The notes under the pieces are model-generated. The model searched no databases, was not told the origin of the DNA, and worked only from the letters and a program-made list of their open reading frames with translations. Source: a virus. From it: a DNA stretch of 37,522 nucleotides. The position numbers and the translations under genes are program-made. Every line of letters begins with the position of its first letter. The stretch's first letter is position 1. The stretch covers positions 1 to 37,522 of IMG/VR virus record IMGVR_UViG_3300032245_000448; one strand, given 5' to 3'. Shown here in pieces: positions 2,182 to 24,415 of the stretch.

Positions 2182-3591
2182 ATGGCTATATTAGATATTT
2201 TCAAAAGAAAATCAAACAAAACCGCTCAAGAAAGTAATACTCTTTTTGGTCAAACTGCCCTTGGTAACAACATTTTACGCAATGTTTCAGGTCAGAAACA
2301 ACAAGCCAACAATCAATTATTATATGTAACTACAAGCTCTGTCAATACTGCAGGTCGCGTTGTCGATATGTCAATGCTATCTCGCAACTCAACTGTAATG
2401 GCTTGTGTCAATGCAAAAGCTAGAGCATTAGCTCAATTGCCTATTAAAATCATGGCTTATGATGAAAATGGCAAATTAGTTGATGCAGTAACAGATTCTA
2501 AAGTATCCGCAAGAGACAAAGCTAAAGCTAAAGCGGTATATAACTTATTAAACAATCCAAACAATTATCAATCAGCCTATGAGTTTTGGTATCAATGGTC
2601 AATGTGGTATGACTTATCAGGTGAAACATTTACTGCTTTATGGCGCAAAGAGCAATCTAATCCTACATTAACTCCAATGGAAATGTATTTATTAGATTCA
2701 ACTCTAATTACTGCACAAATTACACCAACTCGTTATCCTACTTATAGACTTTCAACTTCTACTTATGGCTTTAATAAAGATGAACCATTAGAATATTTCC
2801 AAGTTATTCATGCTTCAGAAATGGCATGGCAAGGTAGCGCAGGCTTCAATAAAGGCGTTTTGGCAGCAGAACTTGTATCTTTAGATCAAGACATTGATTT
2901 ATATTCAAACTTCATCATGCTCAACGGCGCAAAGCCTAGCGGTATGTTTGTAACAGATCAAGTTATTCCTGATGCTAAATTTAAAGAAATCGCAGCAAGA
3001 CTTAAAGAAGCATGGTCTTCATTAACAGGATCAAGCTCAACAGATTTATCTAAACCAGGTCAAGGCATGTTATTAGATCAAGGCATGAAATATATGCCAC
3101 TTAATATGCTAACCCTTCAAGATGCTGACGCAAGAGAATTAAAAACTCAAACTATGAAGCGTATCTGCGGATTGTTTGGTGTTCCGCCAGCAATGATTGG
3201 TATTGCAGATCAAAAATACAATAACACTCAAACAATGCTTGATGAATTCTATAAATCAACAATGTTGCCACTTATTACTAACATTCAACAAAAATTTAAA
3301 ACTTCATTATTAGCTGGCTATCCAAATCTTTGTATTGAATTCCAAACACAAGATTTTCTTAAAGGCGCACCGTTAGATCAAATGAACTATGCCGTAGCAG
3401 GTGTAAATGCTGGTATAATGACACCTAATGAAGCAAGAGAATATTTAGGAAAACAAAACCTAGATAATGCTGACGAATTAAAAGATACATCAAAACAAGC
3501 CAAACCTATTAGCGGCACTTCACCTCAAGATACAGGTGGCGGTGGCAATACTTCTAGCGTTGGTCGCACAGGTCAGGCAGGTAAAGCCTAA
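2182..3591 (+). CDS. Portal protein, HK97 family
   Basis: The 469-residue product is the dodecameric portal at the head vertex through which DNA enters and leaves. HK97-type features include the N-terminal 'NSTVMACVNAKARALAQLP' stretch, a central 'SGETFTALWR' region, and the clip/crown segment ending 'RICGLFGVPPAMIG' followed by 'NTQTMLDEFYKSTMLPL'. The C-terminal tail is low in complexity and Gly/Ser-rich. An SD (AAAGGAAAAAC) precedes the ATG. The stop shares its last A with the ATG of a 36-residue ORF at 3591, so coupled translation is likely. Confidence 0.95.
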   Translation: MAILDIFKRKSNKTAQESNTLFGQTALGNNILRNVSGQKQQANNQLLYVTTSSVNTAGRVVDMSMLSRNSTVMACVNAKARALAQLPIKIMAYDENGKLVDAVTDSKVSARDKAKAKAVYNLLNNPNNYQSAYEFWYQWSMWYDLSGETFTALWRKEQSNPTLTPMEMYLLDSTLITAQITPTRYPTYRLSTSTYGFNKDEPLEYFQVIHASEMAWQGSAGFNKGVLAAELVSLDQDIDLYSNFIMLNGAKPSGMFVTDQVIPDAKFKEIAARLKEAWSSLTGSSSTDLSKPGQGMLLDQGMKYMPLNMLTLQDADARELKTQTMKRICGLFGVPPAMIGIADQKYNNTQTMLDEFYKSTMLPLITNIQQKFKTSLLAGYPNLCIEFQTQDFLKGAPLDQMNYAVAGVNAGIMTPNEAREYLGKQNLDNADELKDTSKQAKPISGTSPQDTGGGGNTSSVGRTGQAGKA

Positions 3592-3701
3592 TGACATTAA
3601 AAGAGTTACTCGATAAATTAACCCAACAGGCTAAAAAGAGAAAACCTCAACCTGTTGAAACTAACGGAATGAAAAATAAGGGAGTGCCAATCAATGACTG
3701 A
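3591..3701 (+). CDS. Small basic protein between portal and protease
   Basis: This is a 36-residue ORF, basic and lacking hydrophobic segments, starting on the portal stop codon (TAATG) and overlapping the protease start by eight bases. Tight overlap on both sides suggests it is translated. I recognise no family. It starts MTLKELLDKL with a short amphipathic helix and is then Lys/Pro-rich. It may be a real small head-assembly protein, or a coupling ORF that carries ribosomes from the portal to the protease gene. Its position between portal and protease is constrained, but its function is unknown. Confidence 0.5.
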   Translation: MTLKELLDKLTQQAKKRKPQPVETNGMKNKGVPIND

Positions 3702-4494
3702 AATTAATAAATCTAATTTCGAAAAGTTCTTTTTCGAATCTAAAGTAGCGTTAGGTGTTAAAGCCGATGAATCTGCTGATGCTAGTGGCATGATTGAAGC
3801 TACAGTAACAACATGGGGCGCTCGCGAAGGCGCTGATGGTCGCAGATTTAATTATCAACCTGAAGGCTTTGCACAATGGGCTGATGAATTTGCTAAATCA
3901 GGTAAACCATTGCCAATGTTCTTTCAACACAATGATATGAACATGCCTGTAGGCGAATGGCAAGAATTTGAATTTACAGATAAAGGTATGAATGCAAAAG
4001 GCAGATTATTTACAAACACAACTGCTGGTAAAGACCTTTATACAATTATGAAAGAATCACCAAACATGGTTGGCGGTGTTTCTGTTGGTGCTTATGCTGA
4101 TGAATTTAAAATGGTTGATGCTGAAGGTATGGATGATGATTCTGATGAAGCATATTTCCAAATTACTAAAGGCGGATTAAGAGAAGTATCGATTGTTATG
4201 CAACCTAACAATCTTGAATGCAATATCTCGAAATTAGAGTGCTTTAGAGCCGATGGTTCTTTAGACTTAAAACTAATCGAGAAAGCATTGCGTGATGCAA
4301 AACTTTCAAGAAAAGATGCGACCACCGCGTCTTCAATTTTCAAACAAATTTTAGCAACTCGTGATGAGACTAAAGTTGAAGTTGAAAATACACCTATTCA
4401 GAGTGATGCTGATGCGGTGGTAGATGAGAACGAAGCAATCCTTAAAGCAATTGAGGAACGCGAACTTCTTAAAAAACTTAACAATCGTAAATAA
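3694..4494 (+). CDS. Prohead protease, HK97 (U35/S78) type
   Basis: The 266-residue product is the maturation protease that cleaves the capsid delta domain inside the prohead. It shows a candidate catalytic His at 79 in FFQHNDMNMPVGEW, a Ser at 130 in VGGVSVGA, and the family's 'LREVSIVMQPNN' block at about 162-173. The acidic, Ala/Glu-rich C-terminal part after about 200 probably acts as an internal scaffold or self-cleavage region. It lies directly before the major capsid gene, as in HK97. The protein it serves is the 448-residue capsid protein, which keeps an N-terminal coiled coil. The second capsid paralogue appears to lack this substrate region. Confidence 0.93.
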   Translation: MTEINKSNFEKFFFESKVALGVKADESADASGMIEATVTTWGAREGADGRRFNYQPEGFAQWADEFAKSGKPLPMFFQHNDMNMPVGEWQEFEFTDKGMNAKGRLFTNTTAGKDLYTIMKESPNMVGGVSVGAYADEFKMVDAEGMDDDSDEAYFQITKGGLREVSIVMQPNNLECNISKLECFRADGSLDLKLIEKALRDAKLSRKDATTASSIFKQILATRDETKVEVENTPIQSDADAVVDENEAILKAIEERELLKKLNNRK

Positions 4495-4503
4495 GGATAA
4501 ATC

Positions 4504-5850
4504 ATGTCAGAAAAAATTATTGAAAAATTAGATGCTATTGAAGCAGCTAATTTAGCAAAAGTTGAAGAAGTAACTGCTTCAGTTGATGCTAAACTTGCTG
4601 AAACAGTAGCTTCATTCGATGAGAAAGTTGCTGCACTTGAAGCTAAAGTTGCTTCAGTTCAAGCTCCTTCAACAATCAAAACATACACATCAATCAGCCA
4701 AGAAGTTAATCGTATGGTTAAAGGTCAATTAGCTGAATTCGTTAAAGGCGCTGGTCGCGTTGAAAAAGAAATCAAACTCTTTGAAGATGCTGGTCAATAC
4801 GATGCTTACATGAAAGAAGCTTCAGCTTTAACAGGTTCAGGCGCTGGTGTTGGTGGTAGAACTGCTTATGATCCTGTATTCGTTGCATTGCGTTTAGCTA
4901 ATCCTATGCGCGGTGTTTCAAGAGCAGTTGCAACTGATGGTTCAACATATCAATTCCGTGCTAAAACAGGCAATGCTGGTGCAATGTGGGGCTATCCTGT
5001 TAATAACAACACTTCTTCAGGTGCTAACCCAACTACTGAAGCAACAACAATTTGGCAATTGACACTTCAAGACTTAAATACACAGTTCCCAATCAGAACT
5101 GCTGCTCTTGACGATATCGATGGTCTTGAATCTAATGTTGTTAGCGACATGTTGCTTGAGTTCTCACAACAAGAAGCTCTTTCAATGATTCAAAACAACG
5201 ATCAAGGCGTTACATCACTACCTTATGGTGGTTCTAATGGTCTTCGTGGTTTAAATCAATATCCAGGTGCTAACGGAACATACACAGGCGGTTCTACTTC
5301 TACTGCTGCTTATGGTTCTTCAGGCACAGGTTCTACATCAGGTTTACATTCAATCGCAACTTATGACCAATTAACAACCAATGGTGATGGTGGCGTGAAC
5401 AATGTAACTTACAAAGATGTTGTGAACTTTATCTATGCTTTACCACAACAATATTGGACACCAACTGCTAAATTCATTATCAGCCCACTCATGTTAGCTG
5501 GTATTCGTGGTTTAACAGATTCACAAGGTCGCCCAATCTATGTTGATGGTCTTGCTCGTGAAGATGGTATCGTTGGCACATTATTAGGTTTTGATGTTGT
5601 TGTTAATAAATACCTAGATGTTCCATTTATTGATACTGCTGCTGGCACAGATTCTCTCTATCCAATGTATTTTGGTGATTGGAATCGTTGCCACGCAATC
5701 GTTGATCGTTTAAATATGGTTCTACGCCGTTACGATCAAACATTGCCAGGCTATATCACATTCTATGGTGAAAAGCGTTTAGCAACTTCAGTTGTTGATC
5801 CTTTTGCTTTAGTAAGATATAGATCAACTGCAACTGTAACAAAACCATAA
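4504..5850 (+). CDS. Major capsid protein 1 (HK97 fold, with delta domain)
   Basis: This 448-residue capsid protein has an N-terminal Ala/Glu/Lys-rich coiled coil (about residues 1-55). That is the scaffolding delta domain expected to be removed by the upstream protease, probably a little before the 'EASALTGSGAGVGGRT' segment at 105-120. The rest has HK97-type features: an N-arm, Gly-rich loops, a long spine helix region around 'SNVVSDMLLEFSQQEA', and a C-terminal 'YGEKRLATSVVDPFALVRY' strand typical of phage capsids. The SD (AAGGATAAATC) is good and codon use is GC-richer than in small genes nearby, fitting high expression. A hairpin follows, and then a paralogous capsid gene. Confidence 0.93.
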   Translation: MSEKIIEKLDAIEAANLAKVEEVTASVDAKLAETVASFDEKVAALEAKVASVQAPSTIKTYTSISQEVNRMVKGQLAEFVKGAGRVEKEIKLFEDAGQYDAYMKEASALTGSGAGVGGRTAYDPVFVALRLANPMRGVSRAVATDGSTYQFRAKTGNAGAMWGYPVNNNTSSGANPTTEATTIWQLTLQDLNTQFPIRTAALDDIDGLESNVVSDMLLEFSQQEALSMIQNNDQGVTSLPYGGSNGLRGLNQYPGANGTYTGGSTSTAAYGSSGTGSTSGLHSIATYDQLTTNGDGGVNNVTYKDVVNFIYALPQQYWTPTAKFIISPLMLAGIRGLTDSQGRPIYVDGLAREDGIVGTLLGFDVVVNKYLDVPFIDTAAGTDSLYPMYFGDWNRCHAIVDRLNMVLRRYDQTLPGYITFYGEKRLATSVVDPFALVRYRSTATVTKP

Positions 5851-5872
5851 TTTAAAAATATGGTCATGGAAA

Positions 5873-5890
5873 GGGCGGAGCAATCCGCCC
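5873..5890 (+). terminator. Hairpin between the two capsid genes
   Basis: A 7-bp perfect stem GGGCGGA/TCCGCCC encloses a GCAA tetraloop and is followed by CTTCTTTAATT. It looks like a weak intrinsic terminator or an RNA-processing or stabilising hairpin, since the T run is interrupted. It lies after the first capsid gene and 27 bases before the second. Partial termination or transcript stabilisation could set the ratio of the two capsid proteins. Confidence 0.6.
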
Positions 5891-5917
5891 CTTCTTTAAT
5901 TAATTTAGGAAAGAAAA

Positions 5918-6970
5918 ATGAATACATCTGAAAGAATTTTAAACGGCATTAAGACTGCATTAACTGAAGGCGAAGCTAAAGTTAATCTTTTTGAAGAAAA
6001 AGCCCAGGATGTTAAAGAAGCTTCAACGCTTACAGGTTCAGGTTTAGATATTGGTGGTAGAACTTACTTTGATGACGCTTTTGCGGCTTTGCGTTTAGCA
6101 AATCCTTTCAGAATTGGCGCTCGTCAAGTTAAATACACAGGTTCTGCTGCTCAATTCGTAGCCAAAACAGGTAACGCAGCGAACTCAACGAATCCATGGT
6201 TATATGCGGTGGTTCCTGATAGTGGTAGCCCAAATATTGCTACCAATACATGGCAACTACCAACAAGAGTTATTGCAGCTCAACTTCCAATTAGAAGTGC
6301 TGCATTAAGCGATATTAATGGTTTAGATACTGCAATCGTAACTGATTTAATGCTTGAATTTAGTCAATTAGAAGCTGCTTCTATGGCATTAAACAACGAT
6401 CAATCAGGATCAACAACAACTTCAACAGGCGGTGTAAATGGTTTAAGGGGTTTAGATACTTACTTAAAAAGCACATCCGCTGCATCATACGGCACAAGCG
6501 GAACTGCAATCACAAATGGAATTCATACAATTGTTTATGAATCAGTTGATTCAGTTGCTCCAACTTATGATGATTTAGTTAATACACTAAACAAATTGCC
6601 AGCTCAATATTGGTATAGACCAAATACAGCATGGCACATGCATCCAGGTTTAATTGCTCTTTTAAGAGAAATGAAAGCTACAGGCGGTTTACCATTATTA
6701 TTTGAAGTAGGTGATGGTGATGGCGGTGCAGTAACTCATATTTTTGGAATTCCTGTAATTCCTAATTCATATCTTGCAGCTCCAGGCGCTGGTGGTTTAA
6801 TGGGCGTTATTGCAGATTGGGATCAGTTTTTAACAATCGCTGATGCTGAAGACATGAATATTAAAATGTTTGAGCAAACACAACCTGGCACAGTAACGCT
6901 ATATGCGGAAAAACGATTAGTTTCAACAGTTCGTAATCCGTTTGCTGGCGTTTATATGATCGGAGCATAA
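5918..6970 (+). CDS. Second HK97-fold capsid protein (paralogue without delta domain)
   Basis: The 350-residue protein is clearly paralogous to the preceding major capsid protein. 'EASTLTGSGLDIGGRTYFDD' at 34-53 aligns with residues 105-124 there, followed by matching 'AALRLANPF', 'KTGNA', 'TDLMLEFSQLEAASM', 'NNDQ', 'GVNGLRGL' and the C-terminal 'YAEKRLVSTVRNPFAGV'. It lacks about 70 N-terminal residues, including the coiled-coil delta domain, and the loops between 'NNDQ' and the C-terminus differ. It could be a vertex or minor capsomer component, as gp24 is beside gp23 in T4, or a redundant subunit. It has its own SD (TTAGGAAAGAAAA). The frame is intact, so it is not a decaying copy. Confidence 0.88.
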   Translation: MNTSERILNGIKTALTEGEAKVNLFEEKAQDVKEASTLTGSGLDIGGRTYFDDAFAALRLANPFRIGARQVKYTGSAAQFVAKTGNAANSTNPWLYAVVPDSGSPNIATNTWQLPTRVIAAQLPIRSAALSDINGLDTAIVTDLMLEFSQLEAASMALNNDQSGSTTTSTGGVNGLRGLDTYLKSTSAASYGTSGTAITNGIHTIVYESVDSVAPTYDDLVNTLNKLPAQYWYRPNTAWHMHPGLIALLREMKATGGLPLLFEVGDGDGGAVTHIFGIPVIPNSYLAAPGAGGLMGVIADWDQFLTIADAEDMNIKMFEQTQPGTVTLYAEKRLVSTVRNPFAGVYMIGA

Positions 6971-6973
6971 TAA

Positions 6974-7639
6974 ATGGCTGATACGCTTGGACAAGTTCCT
7001 TATGCGGCAACTCGCAACCCGTTTAACTATGAAAAAGTTGAACAAATTGCTAGAGACTTAACTACTAATTGGCTTACTTTAGATGAAATCACCAATCAAT
7101 TAAATTTGTTTGGTGACGAATCTCAAGATGCTTATTTAAATGGTTTAGAATTAGCAGTAAGAATGCATATTGAGGATTATCTCGGTATGTCTATTTTTCC
7201 TACTTCTTATCGAGTTTATTATAATGTTTCATCTTTATATGCAAGTCCTGTATGTTTAGATTTGCCTGAAGTATCTTATAAAGATAACTTTAATTCAGGT
7301 GGCATTGTTATAAATAAAGTTGCTTACTATAACGGAAATACTCCAAGCTTATTAGTGTCTTTAACTGCTAATGACTATTACTACGATGTCACAGGAAATA
7401 AAGTTATTCTTCCTAATGGCACTCCTAGCAATATCAGCATGAATAGAACAAGTCCTTTAGTTATTGAATACACAGTTAATCCTAATTTTTTACAAGCTTA
7501 TCCTGTGATTAAACAAGCAGGTTTATTATTATTAACTCATCTTTATAATAATCGATCAGAAACAACTTTAACTAAACTTCAAGCTATTCCTTATGGTGTG
7601 GATGCCCTTTTAAGACCTTATAAACCATTGGTGATGTAA
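6974..7639 (+). CDS. Head-tail connector, gp6-like
   Basis: The 221-residue protein resembles the HK97 gp6/SPP1 gp15 connector ring that binds under the portal. The N-terminal half has the helical pattern of that family, 'LDEITNQLNLFGDESQDAYLNGLELAVRMHIEDYLG', and the C-terminal half ends in a helix with 'PVIKQAGLLLLTHLYNNR'. An extra beta-rich insert lies between these helices (about 75-170), making it longer than the compact 100-residue versions. It starts three bases after the second capsid gene and is followed immediately by the head-closure gene. Confidence 0.75.
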   Translation: MADTLGQVPYAATRNPFNYEKVEQIARDLTTNWLTLDEITNQLNLFGDESQDAYLNGLELAVRMHIEDYLGMSIFPTSYRVYYNVSSLYASPVCLDLPEVSYKDNFNSGGIVINKVAYYNGNTPSLLVSLTANDYYYDVTGNKVILPNGTPSNISMNRTSPLVIEYTVNPNFLQAYPVIKQAGLLLLTHLYNNRSETTLTKLQAIPYGVDALLRPYKPLVM

Positions 7640-19065: not shown

Positions 19066-20211
19066 ATGACAATACAAGAATTTAAAGATAATGGATATGT
19101 TCATTTAAAAAATGTATTAGATGAACAATCATGTAAAAATTTAACTGATTATTTAAAAAATTTAGTTAATCAACAACAAACAATTAAAGATTCTCAATGT
19201 CCTAATTCTGAAGCGGTGCATGGCGCAGAAGAATTTGATAAACTTCTTGAAGCATTAACTCCTTATTTTGAAGAAAAATCAGGTCTTAAACTTTATCCAA
19301 CTTATTCCTATGCAAGACTTTACACAACTCAAAATGAAATATTAGAAAATCATCGAGATAGACCGGCTTGCGAAATATCAGCCACAATTACATTAGGATT
19401 TGAAGGGAATGTATGGTCAATATATATGGGTGATAATGAAGATAAATCTAATAGTTCAAAAATTGATATGGCTATTGGTGATGCGGTTATGTATCGAGGT
19501 TGTGATAAATGGCATTGGAGAGAGCCTTATTTTGAAGGTAAATGGCAAGCTCAAGTATTTTTGCATTATGTTGATGCCAATGGTCCTTATGCTGAATGGA
19601 AGTATGATAAAAGAGAATCATTAGGTTTAAGCAAAACAATTCAACAACCTTTACCGCCTGAATTAGATGTAGCTTATGTTATGCCAAAAGCTTTATCTTA
19701 TGCTTTTTGCGATAAACTTATAGAAGAATATTCAAAGCCTGAAGTAGAAAAAGAACTTCCTTTTATTGGCGAAGGCAGAGATTTAGAAAAAAATATTAAT
19801 CTTAATATTAGAAATGTATTAAGGTTACCGCTTCCAATGAATCAAGGAATAGGCGCAACACTTACTTCTATTGGATTAAATCTTAATCATGAATTTTGGC
19901 AATTTAATATTACTCATTCTAATCAAGCTGAATTTTTAATGTATGATATAAATGGAAAATATGAAGCTCATGTAGATACTTTTCATAAGTTAGATAATAA
20001 TTCTCGAAAGATTACTGTATTAGCTATTCTTAATGATAATTTTGAAGGTGGTAAATTTTATATTCAAAATGGACATAAAAAAATATACCCACAACAAAAT
20101 AAAGGTGATGTTATAGTTTTTCCATCATTTTTACTTCATGGAGTTGAGCCTGTAACAAAAGGTCAAAGATTTACAGTTGTTACATGGTTAGCTGGACCAT
20201 ATTTTAAATGA
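19066..20211 (+). CDS. Two-domain 2OG-Fe(II) dioxygenase (prolyl-4-hydroxylase-like C-domain)
   Basis: The 381-residue protein carries two dioxygenase-like domains. Domain 1 (about 1-190) has His96-x-Asp98 in 'ENHRDRPACEISATITLG', a second His at 150 in 'KWHWREPYFEGKW' and a closing strand. Domain 2 (about 200-381) has His302-x-Asp304 in 'YEAHVDTFH', 'RKITVLAILNDNFEGGKFY', His358 in 'GDVIVFPSFLLHGVEPV' and Arg368 in 'GQRFTVVTW'. That is a full double-stranded beta-helix set of the P4Hc (prolyl 4-hydroxylase-like) type. Both domains appear intact. The reaction would couple 2-oxoglutarate decarboxylation to hydroxylation. The substrate is not shown; see the collagen-like protein at 21333. It overlaps the next gene by ATGA. 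Confidence 0.85.
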   Translation: MTIQEFKDNGYVHLKNVLDEQSCKNLTDYLKNLVNQQQTIKDSQCPNSEAVHGAEEFDKLLEALTPYFEEKSGLKLYPTYSYARLYTTQNEILENHRDRPACEISATITLGFEGNVWSIYMGDNEDKSNSSKIDMAIGDAVMYRGCDKWHWREPYFEGKWQAQVFLHYVDANGPYAEWKYDKRESLGLSKTIQQPLPPELDVAYVMPKALSYAFCDKLIEEYSKPEVEKELPFIGEGRDLEKNINLNIRNVLRLPLPMNQGIGATLTSIGLNLNHEFWQFNITHSNQAEFLMYDINGKYEAHVDTFHKLDNNSRKITVLAILNDNFEGGKFYIQNGHKKIYPQQNKGDVIVFPSFLLHGVEPVTKGQRFTVVTWLAGPYFK

Positions 20212-20777
20212 ATTTCATTTATCAAGAATTTATATCTGATTTATCTATTTGTGATAATTTAATTCAATTATTTAAAGAGAATAAAAATTATTGGAATCAA
20301 GGTAGATGTAAAGATGGAGTGCATCTTGAATTAAAAAAATCAACAGATATGCCAATTTCAATTGAAGCAATCATATCTAATGACATAATAAAATCTTATA
20401 TTAATGAATTAAATAATATTTCAAAAAATTATATTAAAAAATATGATTTTTGCAACAAAACAGATTTATGGGGAATTGTTGAAGATTTTAATATTCAATT
20501 TTATAAACCAAATGAAGCATTTTATGATTGGCATTGTGAAAGACCAACTTCGGTTTTACCTTATTGTAATAGACATTTAGTATGGATGACATATTTAAAT
20601 GATATTAAAAATGATGGGGAAACAGAGTTTTATTATCAACAATTAAAAATTAAACCTGAAAAAGGAAAAACTGTCATCTTTCCTGTTGATTGGACACATA
20701 CTCATCGAGGAATAACATCTAAAAAAGATGAAAAATATATAATTACAGGATGGTTTAATTATTTAAATAAGGTATAA
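20208..20777 (+). CDS. Putative 2OG-Fe(II) oxygenase 3
   Basis: The 189-residue protein has the pattern 'NIQFYKPNEAFYDWHCERP' (His109-x-Glu111), then 'RHLVWMTYLNDIKNDGETEFYY', 'IKPEKGKTVIFPVDWTHTHRG' (His166) and 'KYIITGWF'. This is the common phage-encoded 2OG-Fe(II) oxygenase arrangement, with an HxE in place of HxD and a Lys rather than Arg just before the final strand. It overlaps the two-domain enzyme by four bases, so the pair is probably made together. It is as AT-rich as the two preceding genes and ends the AT-rich island. Confidence 0.8.
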   Translation: MNFIYQEFISDLSICDNLIQLFKENKNYWNQGRCKDGVHLELKKSTDMPISIEAIISNDIIKSYINELNNISKNYIKKYDFCNKTDLWGIVEDFNIQFYKPNEAFYDWHCERPTSVLPYCNRHLVWMTYLNDIKNDGETEFYYQQLKIKPEKGKTVIFPVDWTHTHRGITSKKDEKYIITGWFNYLNKV

Positions 20778-22765: not shown

Positions 22766-24415
22766 ATGGCTAATAAAATCATACTGAAAAAAAGTTCCGT
22801 AGCTGGAAAAGTTCCTCTAGCTACGGATTTAGATGTTGGCGAGGTTGCACTAAATCTTGCCGACAAAACCCTTTATAGTAAAGATGCTGGCGGCACAGTC
22901 ATTCAAATTGGCGGTGGTAGTAGCATGGTTTATCCAGGCGCTGGCATTCCTAATTCTACAGGTTCAGCTTGGGGAACATCTTATACCACTACAGGTTCAG
23001 GAAATGTTGTATTAGCAACAGGTGCTACACAAGCACATCCTACAATTAGCGATTATGAATCATTTACACCAACAACTGCACCTAGTTATGCAGAAGGTGA
23101 ATTATGGTATGACAGCACGGCACATGCTTTAGCTTACTATAATGATAGTTCTACTTCTACAGTTCATATTGGACAAGATTTACAAGTAAAAGTAATTAAT
23201 AATACAGGATCAACAATTGCTAATGGTTCACCTGTTTATGTTACATCTACATCTAGTGGTCAAACATATCCTAATATTGCATTAGCACAAGCTAATAATG
23301 CTTCTACAGCATCAGTTATAGGATTAACCAATGGTGCTATTGCAAATGGTGCTATAGGTTATGTGACATCACAAGGTGGCATTGATAATGTAAATACAGG
23401 TACATTTACAGTAGGTCAAGTGCTTTATTTAAGCCCATATTCTGCTGGTCAGTTAATGAATACAATCCCACCTACAGGGATTACAGTGCAAGTAGGCGTA
23501 GTATCTTATGTAAATAGTTCTACCGGTAAAATATATGTAAAACAAACAACACCTTTAGCAGTTCCTGCATCTATTATTACAGGACAAGTAGCATTAGCTA
23601 ATGGTGGCACAGGTGCTAATTTAACAGCAACTGCTGGTGGTGTTTTATATTCAGGCGCATCAGCTTTAGCAATTAGTGCTGCTGGTACTGCTGGACAAGT
23701 ATTAACATCTAATGGATCAAGTGCGCCAACATGGACAACACCTACAACAGGTACGGTTACAAGCGTTACAGGCACAGCACCTATATCATCATCAGGTGGT
23801 GCAACTCCTGCAATTAGTATTAGTCAAGCAACAACAAGCACAAACGGTTATTTATCATCTACTGATTGGAATACATTTAATAATAAACAACCTGCTGGAA
23901 GTTATTTAACAACTGTAACGGCAGATGCTCCATTAACAGGATCAGGAACTTCAGCAAGCCATTTATCTATTCCAGCATCAACAGGATCAGTTAATGGTTA
24001 TTTAACTTCTACTGATTGGACTACTTTTAATAACAAACAAGCTGCTTTAGTAAGTGGCACAAACATTAAAACTGTTAATGGCACTACTTTACTTGGTTCA
24101 GGTGATTTAGGAACTATTGGTATTGGTTATGGCGGCACAGGTCAAACAACTGCTAATGCTGCTTTTAATGCTTTAGCGCCTAGTCAAACATCTAATTCAG
24201 GTAAATTTTTAACTACTGATGGCACAAATACTTCTTGGGGAACTCCAACTGCAACTGCCGCAGCAGGTGGCGGTATTTGGGTTAATGTTCAAACAATTAC
24301 TACAAGCTATACAATAGCAACAGGGTATAATGGTTTAAGTGTTGGACCCATAACTGTTGCTTCAGGCACTACAATTACAGTAGCAACAGGCAGTAAATGG
24401 TCAATTTTAAGTTAA
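22766..24415 (+). CDS. Tail fibre protein with Mtd-like N-terminus and fibre repeats
   Basis: The 549-residue protein begins 'KIILKKSSVAGKVPLATDLD' with 'GEVALNLADKTLYSKDAGG', a close match to the Mtd_N-type attachment domain pattern. It contains 'GQVALANGGTGANLTATAGGVLYSGASAL' and 'GQVLTSNGSSAPTWT', sharing a module with the adhesin at 17331. There are two 'GYLxSTDWxTFNNKQ' repeats near 369-383 and 411-425, and a second 'GIGYGGTGQTTANAAFNAL' module. The C-terminus ends 'GPITVASGTTITVATGSKWSIL', a frequent terminal strand in phage fibres. It is likely a long trimeric side fibre. Confidence 0.82.
   Translation: MANKIILKKSSVAGKVPLATDLDVGEVALNLADKTLYSKDAGGTVIQIGGGSSMVYPGAGIPNSTGSAWGTSYTTTGSGNVVLATGATQAHPTISDYESFTPTTAPSYAEGELWYDSTAHALAYYNDSSTSTVHIGQDLQVKVINNTGSTIANGSPVYVTSTSSGQTYPNIALAQANNASTASVIGLTNGAIANGAIGYVTSQGGIDNVNTGTFTVGQVLYLSPYSAGQLMNTIPPTGITVQVGVVSYVNSSTGKIYVKQTTPLAVPASIITGQVALANGGTGANLTATAGGVLYSGASALAISAAGTAGQVLTSNGSSAPTWTTPTTGTVTSVTGTAPISSSGGATPAISISQATTSTNGYLSSTDWNTFNNKQPAGSYLTTVTADAPLTGSGTSASHLSIPASTGSVNGYLTSTDWTTFNNKQAALVSGTNIKTVNGTTLLGSGDLGTIGIGYGGTGQTTANAAFNALAPSQTSNSGKFLTTDGTNTSWGTPTATAAAGGGIWVNVQTITTSYTIATGYNGLSVGPITVASGTTITVATGSKWSILS

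Follow-up and report, generated by a model that had tools for sequence, protein, structure and literature searches.

Tailed phages with genomes of about 36-39 kb mostly build both the pentamers and the hexamers of their heads from one protein, and one capsid protein is normally enough in this genome class. To our knowledge, a capsid paralogue placed at the pentamers is known in two cases, T4 gp24 and the Ccm protein of SaPIbov5, both of which have a shorter leader. The T4 vertex protein gp24 is a paralogue of the major capsid protein (MCP) gp23 whose leader is removed by the prohead protease, and this leader comprises 10 residues in gp24 versus 65 in gp23 (PMC9958956). Ccm, with a leader of 87 residues versus 128 in the phi12 capsid protein, takes the pentamers of the shell (PMC8569155).

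The window analyzed here, a virus record of 37,522 bases, carries two adjoining capsid genes, designated MCP1 and MCP2. Among the named records of the phage collection, only Methylophilaceae phage P19250A (KX815270) has an MCP2; in it, P19250A_0005 and P19250A_0006 lie in the same place and encode products 79.0% and 67.9% identical to MCP1 and MCP2, respectively; P19250A differs in that its second gene is annotated only as a hypothetical protein. OM43 phage Venkman, which is related to P19250A, was described with 'a capsid protein' (PMC8163748). The capsid pair is undescribed in the literature found on P19250A and its relatives, and no two-MCP tailed phages of this kind were found in a literature search in which subscription journals were thinly covered.

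Two capsid paralogues in the head-gene region

The head region of the window is ordered terminase, portal, S78-type protease, MCP1, MCP2 and head-tail adaptor, a neighbourhood typical of HK97-fold MCPs. On the + strand, the portal gene (2182..3591; PF04860, E 3.5e-61) is followed by the gene for an S78-family prohead protease (3694..4494; PF04586, E 1e-10; phrog_3244, head maturation protease), which is likely the processing enzyme for both capsid proteins. MCP1 (4504..5850, +; 448 aa) belongs to the HK97 fold family of major capsid proteins and matches phrog_10 (major head protein) in addition to PF05065 and TIGR01554. MCP2 (5918..6970, +; 350 aa) ends 4 bases before the head-tail adaptor gene (6974..7639, +; PF05135; phrog_40, head-tail adaptor Ad1). 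Elsewhere in the window, at 19066-20777, two adjoining genes both match 2OG-Fe(II) oxygenase, the first of which also matches at its N-terminus a phage family labelled ferrochelatase, and this genome may thus contain another local duplication.

The initial annotation had described the pair as tandem, divergent HK97-fold capsid paralogues, and this description is borne out both by BLASTP between the two products and by independent family matches. The products share 39% identity over 371 columns (216 bits, E 6e-71), a similarity far beyond chance. MCP1 and MCP2 score 103.1 bits (E 2.3e-29) and 50.9 bits (E 1.9e-13) against PF05065 (Phage_capsid; curated cut-off 24.2), and 101.9 bits (E 4.1e-29) and 57.5 bits against NCBIfam TIGR01554 (cut-off 27.5), and the only PHROG family matched by MCP2 is phrog_10. 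As had also been stated, both frames are intact, each starting with ATG, and both have good Shine-Dalgarno sequences, AAGGA at 4493-4497 for MCP1 and AGGA at 5907-5910 for MCP2.

The pair is fixed in a large phage group

The MCP1-MCP2 pair is constant throughout a large group of common, small freshwater and marine tailed phages that includes P19250A. Among the loci collected with a single MCP1 query and a single MCP2 query, 120 contain a complete MCP1, and MCP2 is the next gene in 116 of them; the other 4 contigs end within 185 bases. The MCP1-bearing loci came mostly from the MCP1-only scan and hence were not selected for MCP2. Over all fetches, one MCP1 and one MCP2 are present in 188 of 209 loci, and the remaining loci are cut by a contig end, except for three single-MCP phages deliberately included as outgroups. 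Since some contigs were fetched twice, the number of distinct MCP1-MCP2 pairs is 122. At least 596 relatives of MCP1 and at least 588 of MCP2 are present on viral contigs, from which the best 80 per scan were taken, so that MCP1 without MCP2 could occur among more distant relatives. No close relative with a single MCP was found in the scan of genome contigs, in which five MAG-binned contigs were matched. These five contigs (L135-L139) are placed in MAGs labelled Nitrosotalea, Alphaproteobacteria, Betaproteobacteria, Gammaproteobacteria and Rhodocyclaceae, and probably represent phage contigs that were misassigned during binning.

This distribution bears on a second role that had been offered for MCP2, that of a minor capsomer that lets two capsid sizes form. 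Such a protein would determine the size of the capsid or switch it, so that particles of two sizes arise or an incorrect size is prevented, as with Ccm and phi12: Ccm, a capsid homologue with a shorter delta domain, redirects size via the pentamers (PMC8569155). However, Ccm is the product of a satellite gene, whereas MCP2 is, in all relatives, a constant neighbour of the MCP gene that belongs to the phage itself. Moreover, the longest relatives among the matches listed are all about 35-40 kb with no second genome class, leaving this role without support, and we consider it unlikely.

Unequal leaders and a common putative processing motif

The alignment register given in the initial annotation, with MCP2 residue 34 on MCP1 residue 105, is exact. 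E34 aligns with E105, each of which is invariant in the alignment of its own family, and in both families this Glu is usually followed by A-S-x-L/I-T-G-S/G-G, although the residues after the Glu vary in a few MCP1s, such as that of L020. Up to this motif, the leader comprises 105 residues in MCP1 (4504..4818, +) and 34 in MCP2 (5918..6019, +); downstream of the Glu, about 341 and 318 residues follow, respectively. In a low-confidence model, the MCP1 leader, or delta domain, is mostly helical (helices at residues 3-51 and 64-81), and the MCP2 leader contains a short conserved helix predicted at residues 3-17. The BLAST match also extends weakly upstream of MCP2 E34 and MCP1 E105, to residues 6 and 70, respectively. 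MCP2 had been considered to lack the delta domain; its delta region is indeed much shorter but not absent, since a short conserved leader is kept.

Judged from the sequences, the invariant-Glu motif is the putative prohead protease site, with cleavage after E105 in MCP1 and after E34 in MCP2. The fold alignment begins with MCP2 residue 57 on HK97 residue 128, and therefore the cut in the HK97 capsid protein, at 103/104, would fall near MCP2 residue 33. MCP2 could instead assist assembly, depart before the shell matures and be absent from the virion shell, but this is very improbable, considering that it keeps the full capsid core, the C-terminus and the presumed cleavage motif.

In one MCP2 subgroup of about 441 aa, comprising L071 (2816-3110), L072, L081, L096 and L102, an additional N-terminal domain of about 95 aa is present, which matches phrog_2859 (unknown function). 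This domain recurs in annotated major capsid proteins of Synechococcus phages S-CBS1 and S-CBS3 and of Roseobacter phage CRP-406. It is also found in an Actinomycetia phage, as part of a capsid maturation protease, and in Vibrio phages, in the product of the gene immediately preceding the MCP gene. Possibly it is a mobile domain that belongs to the inside of the prohead.

Fold and differences between the two proteins

Confidence in the MCP2 model is modest (pLDDT 66), with weak parts at residues 26-53 and 75-113; the N-arm and the E-loop are of low confidence. Its best structural matches are HK97-type shells, with the capsid protein of the Rhodobacter capsulatus gene transfer agent (RcGTA) at the top (Z 19.6 over 248 residues) and the HK97 prohead at Z 15.6, supporting an HK97 fold for MCP2. 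The MCP1 model (pLDDT 49) is too poor for judging the fold.

Across the two families, 68 columns reach at least 93% conservation in each; the residue is the same in 59 of them and differs in 9. The 59 identical columns of the cores are consistent with a mixed shell, in which MCP1 and MCP2 would share capsomers in a regular or irregular manner and MCP2 would tune stability or surface. Such co-assembly has a precedent in two-component encapsulins: two HK97-fold paralogues of Streptomyces lydicus form shells together, in variable ratios and with irregular tiling (PMC12407261). We regard a mixed shell as the chief alternative to the vertex role proposed below, though as a lesser possibility, because the very unequal leaders, together with the hairpin between the genes described below, point to unequal roles and amounts.

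Eight of the nine fixed differences lie at MCP1 residues 324-403, and the differences are concentrated in the A domain (Fisher p 0.0036) when this domain is assigned to residues 234-405, a transfer from HK97 that we set after the counts were seen. The A domain packs round the capsomer centre (PMC8569155), and some of the mutations that bypass T4 gp24 are located in it (PMC9958956). The families also differ in length at two places. The stretch at MCP1 253-314 has 60-69 residues in MCP1, 44-46 in MCP2 and 38 in the single-MCP phages, and the loop between MCP1 residues 368 and 392 has 22-26 residues in MCP1, 12-17 in MCP2 and 16 in the single-MCP phages. A reading of the latter loop as an A loop facing the axis of the capsomer was dropped, as it comes after the FGxPVV strand and the phi12 A loop (residue 323) precedes that strand, and neither length difference is assigned to the axis; hhalign of the MCP1 and MCP2 profiles against the phi12 capsid protein gave no usable alignment.

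A terminator-like hairpin separates the two genes

The spacer between the two genes in the window contains a GC hairpin (5873-5890) with a T-rich tail (5873..5899 in all, +), and up to position 22,796 the + strand has no other perfect stem with at least 5 GC pairs. A GC hairpin is present in the spacers of all 82 distinct pairs examined, 78 of which satisfy a terminator rule. The hairpin sequence varies freely between pairs, and the folding of the spacers beats that of dinucleotide shuffles (mean z -3.05). The MCP1/MCP2 spacer showed no promoter-like site. The hairpin is probably a partial terminator or a stabilizer of the 3' end of the MCP1 message.

A GC-rich hairpin also lies directly 3' of the capsid gene in the single-MCP phages D14E, Bcep176 and VW-6S (L206, 3674-3718; L207, 3320-3392; L208, 2924-2964), and a post-MCP hairpin may be widespread in such head operons. 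The hairpin of the pair therefore probably belongs to MCP1, with MCP2 lying beyond it. Its terminator-like nature suggests that MCP2 would be made in a smaller amount than MCP1, and the same lowered expression would be expected for the tail genes, which are also downstream of it. Because it lies upstream of the tail genes as well and is present in single-MCP phages, the hairpin is no argument for a 1:6 ratio of the two proteins.

A low amount of MCP2 would also suit another minor place in the particle, for instance a ring of subunits around the portal, or a part in nucleation, and the position of its gene directly upstream of the head-tail adaptor gene agrees with this. Nevertheless, a known example was not found and the sequence lends it no specific support, making such a place improbable.

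Single origin, purifying selection and recombination

All MCP2 sequences form one clade apart from every MCP1 (SH-aLRT 100), indicating a single origin of MCP2 without homogenization with MCP1. MCP1 and MCP2 of the same genome are 36-44% identical. Between genomes, the mean identity is 71% for MCP1 and 60% for MCP2. Both genes are under purifying selection (median dN/dS 0.152 for MCP1 and 0.169 for MCP2). Rooting with single-MCP Pseudomonas and Burkholderia phages was unreliable, as this outgroup forms a very long branch that falls inside MCP1. Because the outgroup is too distant, the root of the duplication is not placed and only the MCP2 clade is claimed.

These results contradict redundancy, the third role that had been offered. 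The fixed pairing, the single MCP2 clade and the purifying selection on both genes make a redundant or decaying duplicate hardly credible: MCP2 is present in every locus with room for it, evolves with a dN/dS of 0.17, keeps the motif and the core, and has not been homogenized with MCP1.

In trees of the aligned MCP1 and MCP2 genes from 42 representative loci, 8 of 16 and 12 of 17 supported splits conflict between MCP1 and MCP2, and the portal and protease trees show no conflicting supported splits (0 of 12 and 0 of 8). Since the trees of the two halves of MCP1 conflict with one another, this reflects recombination in general and not only the exchange of whole genes. The capsid genes thus recombine much in this phage group, and MCP1 and MCP2 lineages occur in many combinations. 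The conflict implies that the partners are exchangeable, which by itself favours neither vertices nor mixed capsomers, although free recombination of lineages would be harder in a mixed shell if every capsomer interface were common to both proteins. The capsid-gene trees from the 42 loci clash with the portal and adaptor trees as well; recombination thus seems to have its hot spots in the capsid genes of these phages, and caution is warranted in using such genes as phylogenetic markers.

A proposed role at the vertices

Taken together, MCP2 most likely makes up a minor, specialized portion of the shell, for example its five-sided corners. Whether it is specifically a pentameric vertex protein that works like T4 gp24 or SaPIbov5 Ccm appears evenly balanced to us. 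Among the three roles offered in the initial annotation, the vertex role is the best supported, by analogy and by the indirect evidence of the shorter leader, the hairpin and the A-domain differences. In the proposed mechanism, the shell would be built from two specialized HK97-fold proteins. MCP1, with its 105-residue, helical, scaffold-like delta domain, would form the hexamers tiling the faces. MCP2, an old duplicate with a 34-residue leader and a lower amount owing to the terminator-like hairpin upstream, would co-assemble with MCP1 and form the pentameric vertices. The S78-type protease would then cut both leaders after the common invariant Glu, and the shell would mature. Of this scheme, the paired, conserved paralogues with their unequal leaders, common motif and intervening hairpin are observed, whereas the cut after the Glu, the relative amounts of the two proteins, their joint assembly and the vertex position of MCP2 are inferred. 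More tentatively, the whole abundant group, with genomes of about 36-39 kb, may possess an obligatory two-protein HK97 shell whose separate hexamer and pentamer modules recombine independently between lineages.

Pentamer specialization has so far been tied mainly to T4. A group that has kept two capsid proteins through its known radiation therefore offers natural material on what drives such specialization, and has culturable members in P19250A and the related Venkman. The second gene, at present annotated as hypothetical, would receive a corrected annotation as well.

Comparison with known systems

The nearest solved structure to MCP2 by both sequence and fold, and to MCP1 by sequence, is the RcGTA capsid protein Rcc01687. 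RcGTA differs, however, in that the pentamers and hexamers of its head are formed by one capsid protein (PMC7296036). The two-component encapsulins of family 2B resemble the pair in having two co-assembling HK97-fold shell proteins (PMC12407261), but they form a bacterial compartment with irregular mixed tiling. Encapsulin shell genes lie outside a phage packaging operon, whereas terminase, portal, protease, adaptor and tail genes adjoin the pair described here.

MCP2 is like gp24 and Ccm in kind, as a paralogue with a shorter leader, a probable lower expression and a presumed common protease. Ccm differs in being satellite-encoded and redirecting size, whereas MCP2 is the phage's own, always present and encoded in the phage's own head operon at all loci. 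With T4 gp24, MCP2 shares that it is a paralogue of the phage's own MCP (39% identity, E 6e-71), although gp23 and gp24 are only about 20% identical and form the large prolate head of a myovirus. No gp23/gp24 family model matched MCP2, for which only PF05065 was returned at E values up to 0.001. The likeness of MCP2 to gp24 would be one of function and not of sequence family. The division of labour between shell proteins proposed here is known from T4 and, as far as the literature shows, would be new for phages of this kind.
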